From Nitrospira sp. (GTDB lineage: Bacteria; Nitrospirota; Nitrospiria; Nitrospirales; Nitrospiraceae), in NCBI GenBank assembly GCA_024331085.1, contig JANDJG010000004.1:1-54284 (forward strand): DNA of 54,284 bases, given 5' to 3'. Positions 12,523 to 15,369 of this stretch are shown one piece after another. The position numbers were made by a program, and so were the translations under genes. Below the pieces are notes generated by a model, which saw nothing but the letters and a program-made list of their open reading frames with translations, searched no databases and was not told the origin of the DNA. The first letter of the stretch is position 1. Every line of letters starts with the position of its first letter.

Positions 12523-12621
12523 TTACTTGTTATGCACGTGCGAGACCGTATAAACCAACGCCGTGTACATGACTACCAACACCGCGCTTCCCGCCAATAC
12601 TCCGACAATCAATGCGACCAT
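12523..12621 (-). CDS. Small single-TM membrane protein, 32 aa (not in supplied ORF list)
   Basis: Minus ATG at 12621: MVALIVGVLAGSAVLVVMYTALVYTVSHVHNK*; GGAGGT Shine-Dalgarno 7 nt upstream (12634-12629). Confidence 0.65.
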   Translation of the reverse strand: MVALIVGVLAGSAVLVVMYTALVYTVSHVHNK

Positions 12622-12670
12622 GGTATGTACCTCCGTTCTTGAATGCCTAGTGTCACACTACTCCGGCTCT

Positions 12671-12699
12671 ATGAAGACTCCATGAGGAGAGCATGAAGA
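12671..12699 (-). promoter_or_regulatory. Three phased direct repeats, candidate OmpR/PhoB-family response-regulator binding site
   Basis: Minus strand TCTTCAT-N4-TCCTCAT-N4-TCTTCAT (plus: ATGAAGA 12671, ATGAGGA 12682, ATGAAGA 12693; exact 11-bp period), 50 bp upstream of the small ORF. Confidence 0.5.
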
Positions 12700-12796
12700 A
12701 TCCTTCATAATGACGGGAGCGTCGTTGACGGCGGAATCGCGTTTTCAACCCAAGAAGGGGCGGCGGGACGGCTTTCGTCGAGGTTCGGGGCGAGCG

Positions 12797-14233
12797 CTAG
12801 GCGAGCATCGTTTGTTGGAGATAGGCGGGGATGCGCAACGTAAAGACAGAGCCCTGCCCCACGCGGCTGGTTACGGAGATGGTTCCGCCGTGGGCTTCCA
12901 CGATCTCTTTGACGATGGGGAGACCCAAGCCCGTTCCGGCTGCGTCCTCGGCTTTTGCCCATTCGGTCCGATAGAATCGCTCGAACAGATGGGGAATGTG
13001 CTCAGGCTCGATGCCATGGCCCGTGTCCTCGACCTCGATCAATACCTCGCGCCCCTCCGCTCGCGCGCGGACGGTCACGGTTCCGCCCGCGGGGGTGTAG
13101 CGCAGAGCGTTATCGAGCAGATTGATCATCGCTTGCTTGAGCCACTGCGGGTCGCCGAGAATGGGAGGAACCGCCCGAGCGTCCAACGACAGGGTGATCC
13201 GCCGGTCATTCGCCAACAACGCCAGTTCCTGCACGATCTCGTGAAGGAAGGGTTCTACCTCAAGAGGAGCCAGTTGGACGGGCGGTTTACTGCTCGTGAA
13301 TTTGGCGAGCGTCAACAAAGGTCTGGTCAAGGCGATGAGCCGATCCACCTGTTCGAGATTGCTGAGGAGCACGTCGCGGTATTCGTCGGCGGTCCTGGCC
13401 TTGAGAAGCGCCACCTCCAAGTTGCCGCGCAGGATGGTCAAGGGCGTTTTCATTTCGTGGGCCGCGATCTCGCAAAAATTTCGCTGGGTCTCGCTGTTCC
13501 GTTGGAATTGATCCAACACGGAGTTGACGGCCTGGGTGAGCCGCCGGAACTCGGTATAAGGAGAATCCAAGGCTAACCGCTTCCCCAAATCGGCCTCGGA
13601 CATGGTTTCGGCGCCAGCGCACAAGGCCTCGATCGGGGTCAGCACCTTCTTGGCCAGCCACAGGCTGCCCAGCCAGGTGACGAGCAGCGTGGCGCCGGAG
13701 CTTATGATCAGCAAGACCAAGAGTTCGCTGAGCGCCGTCTGATAATGAAGCAGCGACGTTTCCGCTTGCAGCACGTAGCGCACGACTCCTTGGCGGGTGA
13801 CGGAGACAAACAGCCGCCGGGCGGGCGTGCCGTCCGGCATCGCCACCGTTTCATAGACCGTGCGTTCGAGCAGCACGCGGTCGAGCATGCGGGGCGAGAT
13901 CAGCGGAAAAGCCGAAGCATTGGGACTTTTCCATAATAACCGGCCGTCCGGCGAGAACACGCGGAGCGAGTGGACGACGCCGTGCAGGTCACGTTGTTCC
14001 TTGATGCCGAGATTGGCGTCGGATGGAAATCCCGCGTCTTGTCCGCGGTTGTCGAGGATGTCGGGGTGGCGATCGATGATCCCGGCGAGGGTCTCCGCCA
14101 ACTCCAACAGCCGTCCATCCACGAATCGATGGAGCAGGGTTTCGTTCGCGAAATACACCAGCGCGGAAAATCCCAGCAGCCAGGCCATGAGCATGAGCGC
14201 GAATCGGCTGATGAGATCGCGCAACGATGTCAT
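12797..14233 (-). CDS. Sensor histidine kinase (HAMP-HisKA-HATPase)
   Basis: Two TM segments, AAHEMKTPLTILRGNLEVAL H-box, NLLDNALRYTPAGG N-box, GTGLGLPIVKEIVEAHGG G-box. Confidence 0.95.
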   Translation of the reverse strand: MTSLRDLISRFALMLMAWLLGFSALVYFANETLLHRFVDGRLLELAETLAGIIDRHPDILDNRGQDAGFPSDANLGIKEQRDLHGVVHSLRVFSPDGRLLWKSPNASAFPLISPRMLDRVLLERTVYETVAMPDGTPARRLFVSVTRQGVVRYVLQAETSLLHYQTALSELLVLLIISSGATLLVTWLGSLWLAKKVLTPIEALCAGAETMSEADLGKRLALDSPYTEFRRLTQAVNSVLDQFQRNSETQRNFCEIAAHEMKTPLTILRGNLEVALLKARTADEYRDVLLSNLEQVDRLIALTRPLLTLAKFTSSKPPVQLAPLEVEPFLHEIVQELALLANDRRITLSLDARAVPPILGDPQWLKQAMINLLDNALRYTPAGGTVTVRARAEGREVLIEVEDTGHGIEPEHIPHLFERFYRTEWAKAEDAAGTGLGLPIVKEIVEAHGGTISVTSRVGQGSVFTLRIPAYLQQTMLA

Positions 14234-14913
14234 GCCGACTGCTCCGGGTCCTCCAGCATGTAGCCCGCGCCGCGCACCGTCGTGATGAGCGGCGGAGAAA
14301 AATTATGGTCGATCTTCGCCCGCAGGGCTCGAATATGGGCGTCCACGATGTTGGTCATGGGGTCGTAGCTGATGTCCCAGACGTGTTCGATGATGACCGT
14401 TCGGGTCAGGACGCGGTTCTTGTTCCGAAGGAGAAATTCCAGCAGCGCGTATTCCTTGTTGGTCAGCGAGATTTCCTGACCGGCCCGCCAGACGCGGTGT
14501 GTCACCGGGTCCAGCGTCAAATCGGCCGCGTGCAAATGAGCCGACGGCTGGGCGCCGCCCCGACGCAGAAGGGCCCTGATGCGCGCCAACAATTCGACGA
14601 AGGCAAAGGGCTTCGCCATAAATTGATCCGCGCCGATGTCAAAACCGGACACCTTCGTCTCCACGGTGTTGCGCGCGGTCAACAGCAGGACCGGCGTCAT
14701 GTTGCCTTTGGCTCGAATGCTCCGGCAAAGAGCAAGGCCGTCAAGCTTGGGAAGCATGACGTCCAAAATCAGCAGGTCGTAGGGATTGCTCAACGCCATG
14801 GCGAGCCCCGCTTCACCGTCCGCCGCGAAGTCCACGGCATAGTTTTCTTCCTTGAGGCCCTTGCGGATGAACTGCGCCAGATCCAAGTCGTCTTCGACGA
14901 GGAGAATGCGCAT
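14230..14913 (-). CDS. OmpR/PhoB-family response regulator
   Basis: MRILLVEDDLDLAQFIRKGLKEENYAVDFAADGEAGLAMA...LDVMLPKLDG; C-terminal winged helix (LTNKEYALLEFLLRNKNRVLTRTVIIEHVW); stop overlaps HK start. Confidence 0.96.
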   Translation of the reverse strand: MRILLVEDDLDLAQFIRKGLKEENYAVDFAADGEAGLAMALSNPYDLLILDVMLPKLDGLALCRSIRAKGNMTPVLLLTARNTVETKVSGFDIGADQFMAKPFAFVELLARIRALLRRGGAQPSAHLHAADLTLDPVTHRVWRAGQEISLTNKEYALLEFLLRNKNRVLTRTVIIEHVWDISYDPMTNIVDAHIRALRAKIDHNFSPPLITTVRGAGYMLEDPEQSA

Positions 14914-14931: not shown

Positions 14932-15369
14932 TCACGGAAGTTGCGAACTCGTCGGTGCTTCGCCCGGTCTCGAAACCTGACCCGCCGCTTTGTGCTTGAG
15001 CGCGCGTCCTTTCCCCGGGGTGGGGTCGGGAACGATCCCATAGATTTCCCGGCCTTCATGCCCTTCTGGGAGATATTCGGTGATCGGCATGCCGTCTTCG
15101 CGGACGAAGAGCAGGCAATGACAATACTTGTAGATCTGCATTTCGTCGCAGGCGCAGATCCAACGCCGCAGTTTGGCTTCCGCCTGCTTATCCTTGTAAA
15201 AATTGCATGGGCAGAGCGGTTTGCCAAGCTCGTCCACGTGCATCGCCAGACCCTTGACGACCGCCTCGGTAACGGAGGGGTTGGGATGCATGACGGTGCC
15301 GCTCTTCTCGGCGTATCCCCGCACGAACTTGACGATCTTCTCGAGACTCTCTTGTGTTGGTTCAGCCAC
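14932..15369 (-). CDS. ftrB: Ferredoxin-thioredoxin reductase catalytic (beta) chain
   Basis: CPC-X16-CAC-X8-CHC: CPCNFYKDKQAEAKLRRWICACDEMQIYKYCHC. Confidence 0.88.
   Translation of the reverse strand: MAEPTQESLEKIVKFVRGYAEKSGTVMHPNPSVTEAVVKGLAMHVDELGKPLCPCNFYKDKQAEAKLRRWICACDEMQIYKYCHCLLFVREDGMPITEYLPEGHEGREIYGIVPDPTPGKGRALKHKAAGQVSRPGEAPTSSQLP

Follow-up and report, generated by a model that had tools for sequence, protein, structure and literature searches.

Does the tiny open reading frame that lies directly downstream of a sensor histidine kinase gene in a Nitrospira genome encode a functional protein and, if so, what controls its expression and what could the product do? We addressed this question by computational analysis of a 54,284-nucleotide stretch of DNA (hereinafter, the window), which is contig C46 of a 2.7-Mb MAG that is 84% complete. 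The nitrite oxidizers and complete ammonia oxidizers of the genus Nitrospira are important worldwide, and the regulation of envelope stress in these bacteria is little known. The result of the analysis is a testable two-component system, with an operator and targets delineated at base resolution, along with a micro-protein family that is absent from the libraries searched.

The tiny gene and its conservation

The gene in question occupies positions 12523..12621 of the minus strand, from the ATG at 12621 to the TAA stop codon ending at 12523, and translation of this segment (12621-12523) yields MVALIVGVLAGSAVLVVMYTALVYTVSHVHNK followed by the stop. The ATG is preceded, at a distance of 7 nt, by the Shine-Dalgarno (SD) sequence GGAGGT (12629..12634, minus strand; 12634-12629 in the direction of reading), which is kept in relatives; the unlisted 32-aa frame with a strong SD is exactly as claimed in the initial annotation. 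When the 54-kb window was screened for ATG-started frames of 20-45 aa with a 19-residue mean hydropathy of at least 2.0 and an SD of at least 5, this was the sole frame to pass all the cuts. The hydropathy cut as such was passed by 1 of the 371 ATG-started frames of 20-45 aa in the window, namely the one at 12621-12523, and in 60 shuffles of the window under a dinucleotide model, no frame passed both the hydropathy and the SD cuts. For the 32-mer, AlphaFold2 predicts a single helix that spans residues 2-30, with a mean pLDDT of 92.6, and this prediction, together with the only transmembrane-grade hydropathy among the window's frames of this class, bears out the near-ideal transmembrane (TM) helix envisaged at the outset. 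The His-rich tail that had been noted along with it is present in the allele of the window, but the histidines are not conserved across the family described below. Because lysine or arginine is always present in the C-terminal part of the protein and absent near the N-terminus (after residue 17, one or the other occurs in all 56 distinct peptides of the family, and within the first ten residues, in 0 of the 56), the positive-inside rule predicts that the N-terminus faces out and the C-terminus faces in.

In a search of 99 genomes, homologs of the 32-mer were confined to the same genus, with clear matches that are 55-100% identical, and the named genomes among these relatives are Nitrospira MAGs. 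The identical 32-mer is encoded with synonymous DNA differences in three genomes (G008, G009 and G040). The clear homologs keep the ATG, the frame and the SD behind an almost identical promoter block, so that all three features, the lack of which in relatives had been named as grounds for rejecting the gene, turned out to be conserved. Pairwise dN/dS values, obtained with the Nei-Gojobori method, are 0.205, 0.200 and 0.177 in three subfamilies, compared to pN/pS values of 0.86-2.3 when the same DNA is read off frame. Because the ratio is about 0.2 in frame and at least 0.86 off frame, the protein is subject to purifying selection, and the segment 12523-12621 of the minus strand is a conserved protein-coding gene. 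A chance frame is ruled out by the frame-specific constraint combined with the screens of the window and its shuffles.

The adjacent two-component system and the operator

The tiny gene terminates the gene order FeThRed_B - RR - HK - tiny frame, which is convergent with smpB. The adjacency to a two-component system, already pointed out in the initial annotation, was confirmed: the sensor histidine kinase (HK; 12797..14233, minus strand) is CusS/CopS-like and contains HAMP, HisKA and HATPase_c domains according to Pfam, and the response regulator (RR; 14230..14913, minus strand) belongs, also according to Pfam, to the OmpR family, is CusR/CopR-like and is the presumed activator of the operator considered below. 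Membership in the CusRS/CopRS heavy-metal systems was not supported, given that the scores of both proteins lie under the curated cut-offs (247.8 bits against 292.55 for HK with TIGR01386, and 257.9 bits against 279.2 for RR with TIGR01387). The RR of the window is 94-100% identical to the RRs of named Nitrospira MAGs; the recognition helix, MTNIVDAHIRALRAKID, is unchanged in the inspected RRs of 78-100% identity; it is slightly different in N. defluvii, the RR of which is 77% identical, and in the deepest RRs (VDVH for VDAH). The gene for the ferredoxin-thioredoxin reductase catalytic chain (FeThRed_B; 14932..15369, minus strand), assigned by Pfam and by synteny in relatives, is located 18 nt upstream of the RR gene and is probably the first gene of the operon. 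The start of this gene overlaps by 16 nt (15354-15369) the divergent start of the gene for a 1058-aa VWA protein, and a shared promoter region of the two is possible.

Upstream of the tiny gene, at 12671..12708 of the minus strand, the candidate operator that had been suspected there was indeed recognized. It reads ATGAAG GATT CTTCAT GCTCT CCTCAT GGAGT CTTCAT (12708-12671), that is, an inverted half-site, ATGAAG (12708-12703), precedes three direct repeats in 11-bp steps, CTTCAT (12698-12693), CCTCAT (12687-12682) and CTTCAT (12676-12671), and the same block is found in the homologs. The inferred -10 element, TAGTGT (12655..12660, minus strand), starts 10 nt past the last repeat, and neither a sigma-70 -35/-10 pair nor an intrinsic terminator was found near the tiny gene. 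The TA of the -10 element is invariant in 64 of the 64 distinct promoters, at columns that were not used in selecting the sites, and the distance from the operator start to the ATG is 83-89 nt in 53 of them. This is the layout of an OmpR/PhoB-type class II activator site, with repeats that are spaced by a helical turn and end about 10 nt before the -10 element, and with no -35 element; PhoB-type class II activator sites share this geometry of repeats and -10. As judged from its sequence and position, the operator is the likely switch site of the neighboring two-component system.

When 16 genomes of the clade were scanned, allowing at most three mismatches, 32 operator sites were revealed, 29 of these before tiny genes, one before the RR gene (G005) and two weak ones (G056), compared to 0 sites for the reversed pattern that served as the control in the same genomes. 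Given that some of these promoters were used to derive the pattern, the scan could have overlooked weaker targets, and the genome assemblies are not complete. With a looser pattern applied to 24 genomes, the counts were far above the controls as well. The window's own genome contains only two operator sites, each preceding a tiny gene: the one at 12708-12671 and another one on contig C178 (G000:C178:1-127; L133), detected in the operator scan of this genome, where the end of the contig truncates a second tiny TM gene so that only its start, MAVIVLGTIGATLL..., is available. In G005 and G101, the gene for the RR is itself preceded by a weaker operator.

With strict RR orthologs defined by E < 1e-118, 59 of the 79 genomes of the genus possess the regulator and 20 lack it; the tiny gene is present in 58 of the 59 and in 3 of the 20, respectively (Fisher p = 2.5e-13, with counts uncorrected for shared ancestry). 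Among the genomes that depart from this pattern, G047 has the two-component system and no tiny gene that we could find, G103 and G048 keep the tiny gene with its operator and have no detected cognate kinase or regulator, and G004 keeps a family member, with the system not detected; incomplete assembly could account for each of these. The perfect operator and tiny gene of G103 (C4:52664-52701) belong to a genome that is 99% complete, where no RR (at E <= 1e-90) and no HK ortholog was found. No tiny gene was detected in any of the five genomes of the genus with a divergent RR of the kind seen in the deeper relatives. The family and the operator are shown to be present chiefly where the genome encodes this RR. 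From the co-occurrence and the autoregulation sites, we infer that the RR binds the operator. We are highly confident that, taken jointly, the gene is real and is controlled by this two-component system.

The micro-protein family and other genes behind the operator

By sequence comparison, the tiny gene is a member of what appears to be an undescribed family of single-helix proteins of 24-32 aa that is represented across Nitrospira. Scanning with the promoter block added 27-mers, such as MMALILGILAVSTVFGIMYKALRVGNE, MAVIVLGAIGATLLFGVLYKALSAGSE and MTTIFFALLALTAVFGFMYKSVFLDGE, and 26-mers, such as MISFIEVFLLAAIFGVLYAMLQLASR. Tyr19 is near-invariant, being present in more than 90% of the 33 aligned family sequences, and cysteine is absent from all the family members listed. 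A profile of the 32-mers and 27-mers reaches MTTIFF-type peptides at E of about 1e-4 to 1e-3 per genome; for the 26-mers, homology to other members is not proven, and their putative assignment is based on the common promoter, length, tyrosine and topology. Pfam and NCBIfam scans of the tested family members gave no credible match.

Some genomes encompass several tiny genes with one operator each; these are either arranged as a tandem array that separates HK from smpB or scattered. The contexts of the dispersed copies are conserved within lineages, yet mutually unrelated (naming the neighbors by eye from their sequences, we take these to be Ppx/GppA-like, GcvP-like and dicarboxylate-symporter-like), and the neighborhoods of these copies, unrelated to each other as they are, indicate no interaction partner. 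The existence of dispersed single-gene copies in unrelated contexts argues for a product that acts in trans.

The presumably operator-controlled gene beside the two-component system differs by lineage and can encode a tiny TM protein, a 78-aa Cys-tailed TM protein, a PepSY protein, a lipoprotein, AmoC or a nitrite-oxidoreductase-like subunit. In two relatives, amoC (PF04896, E 1.8e-102) is located downstream of the same two-component system (L155:3446-4475 and L161:9734-10777), with a close operator match and the TA of a -10 element at 10 nt, and could be under stress control in these organisms. In two other loci (L166:8203-11227 and L201:3304), the operator precedes a gene for a TAT-signal molybdopterin oxidoreductase beside the same system; Pfam identifies only the Molybdopterin domain, and judging by its sequence, we tentatively take this protein to be nitrite-oxidoreductase-alpha-like. 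Because the same operator precedes amoC and the nitrite-oxidoreductase-like gene in relatives, the stimulus that the system senses may be relevant to how nitrification proceeds under stress. A TM protein of 75-79 aa with the tail CKVCFIPGCPVFAPR and no Pfam match is encoded after HK behind an operator variant in L151, L155, L156, L161, L163, L165 and L206. In deeper relatives (L193, L194, L196, L207-L209 and L211-L213), a PepSY gene lies ahead of RR-HK behind an operator variant. Genes for Slp-family outer-membrane lipoproteins also occur behind the operator (L122:2583-3268; L121:9113-9865 in G010; L125 in G024), which suggests an envelope-stress regulon in these larger genomes.

Possible functions of the micro-protein and comparison with known systems

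The explanation that, in our assessment, best accounts for the observations as a whole, and that we favor with moderate confidence, is that the RR turns on the expression of a small membrane effector; for the effector role as such, we put the chances at about even. Under this scenario, a stimulus would cause the CusS-like kinase to phosphorylate the OmpR-type regulator, which would then bind CTTCAT-N5-CCTCAT-N5-CTTCAT and contact the RNA polymerase, substituting for the -35 element (class II activation), so that a short mRNA would be initiated near 12648. The helix of about 32 aa would insert in the membrane, with its K/R-bearing C-terminus on the cytoplasmic side, and would make a larger protein of the inner membrane more or less active or stable, a mode of action comparable to that of PmrR or MgtS. 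Conceivably, although we offer this tentatively, the dispersed micro-protein family is the main or only output of the two-component system in this clade, that is, the pathway would load the membrane with helices of 24-32 aa, peptides that the variation of the operator-controlled gene between lineages would link to the control of nitrification enzymes.

The main rival explanation, which appears rather unlikely to us, is that the micro-protein is a feedback regulator that binds the transmembrane/HAMP region of HK and dampens or tunes the kinase in the manner of MgrB. The position of the gene directly 3' of HK, the probable induction by the cognate RR (to which the operator, the spacing of the -10 element and the co-occurrence with RR all point) and the presence that follows HK/RR all fit such a role, and the 47-aa PhoQ inhibitor MgrB, likewise a bitopic micro-protein induced by a two-component system, is a precedent of a regulon member that inhibits its own kinase, for which its TM region is needed in binding PhoQ (PMC8404706). 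However, whereas MgrB possesses two conserved periplasmic cysteines and a functional periplasmic part (PMC8404706), the family of the window has hardly any periplasmic part, carries a C-terminal K/R tail and includes no listed member with a periplasmic Cys pair of the MgrB type. Another precedent is the PepSY protein DbfQ, which in Vibrio binds the DbfS system and holds it in check (PMC12714742): in deeper relatives (for example, L193 and L209), the operator variant drives a PepSY gene that precedes RR in its operon, an arrangement reminiscent of DbfQ with DbfRS/BqsRS-type systems, but in the clade of the window, where we observed no PepSY gene, the operator-linked product is the tiny TM gene. 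Dispersed copies and multiple paralogs per genome are, moreover, atypical of a feedback peptide, and across the 33 pairs compared, the similarity to the first TM segment (TM1) of HK is weak in the clade (z of about 1.4-2.8) and mostly about 0 in the 26-mer and MTTIFF-type subfamilies, a comparison that says little about a physical contact with the kinase. Mimicry of TM1, in the form of the string 'SALVY' that is found in the kinase TM1 and in some paralogs, was not adopted in view of the weak z and the opposite predicted topology. The effector is preferred to pure feedback because nearly every detectable site in the clade precedes a tiny gene, so that with feedback alone, hardly any further output of the system could be detected; sequence cannot, however, separate the two.

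Quite improbable, in our judgment, is a membrane-perturbing stress peptide that, similarly to YohP or TisB, lowers the membrane potential and slows metabolism. The small size and the lone hydrophobic helix are in line with this role, as are the Slp lipoprotein and PepSY genes behind the operator, which suggest an envelope response, and the 27-aa YohP is reported to lower the membrane potential and to be associated with stress (PMC12719787). However, the near-invariant Tyr19 and the strong purifying selection suggest a specific contact, and no antitoxin partner was recognized at the locus with Rfam.

No more probable is that the protein serves as an accessory subunit, with a structural role, in a complex for respiration or transport. 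The initial annotation had likened the protein, by analogy only, to CydX, CcoQ and KdpF, single-TM proteins of about 30-40 aa that are indeed similar in size and topology, and certain relatives have the operator in front of amoC and of the gene for a nitrite-oxidoreductase-like subunit. Membership in these families found no support: family members scanned against Pfam and NCBIfam, with E values as high as 10 admitted, matched none of the three, and the context differs, in that we saw no operon encoding a complex of this kind among the loci that were read. The neighbors of the tiny gene are the two-component system and smpB rather than cydAB; the gene is not within ccoNOQP, as would be expected of CcoQ/FixQ, and it is not the first gene of kdpFABC. 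One paralog showed a non-significant match to FixP_N (E 0.16, 12.2 bits versus a cut-off of 24.9). Finally, a spurious frame on a regulatory RNA or an untranslated leader, an option compatible with the shortness of the frame and with a strand that has no large downstream gene, is extremely improbable given the codon-level conservation, the frame-specific constraint, the SD, an RNA fold no better than that of shuffles (z = -0.13) and the lack of an Rfam match at the locus (tRNA is the only Rfam family in the window).

For the small membrane effector, parallels exist among known systems. In the openly available literature, we found no account of small (membrane) proteins associated with two-component or response-regulator systems in Nitrospira. 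Micro-proteins controlled by response regulators are already known; as far as we searched, the new aspects are the family, the operator and the multi-copy output of one two-component system. The operators of PhoB, PmrA and BqsR are direct repeats spaced by 11 bp that end about 10 nt before the -10 element; by comparison, the repeat of the window is YTTCAT, in three copies with an inverted fourth half-site. MgtS and MgtR are PhoP-controlled membrane proteins of about 30 aa, and MgtS protects MgtA. The protein described here resembles them, by analogy, in size, topology, control by a two-component system and, as we expect, in having a larger membrane protein as the target, but MgtS and MgtR are encoded away from their two-component system, and the family of the window is multi-copy with a near-invariant tyrosine. 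A further analogy, one of type, is with the enterobacterial PmrR, a membrane peptide under the control of PmrA that acts as an inhibitor of LpxT (PMC8129183). The pmrR gene is divergent to its operon and overlaps pmrB, whereas the gene of the window follows HK in line and has dispersed paralogs; in both cases, however, a bitopic peptide of about 30 aa is encoded beside the two-component system that induces it and possesses its own box of the response-regulator type, the use of which is, in the case of the Nitrospira gene, predicted.
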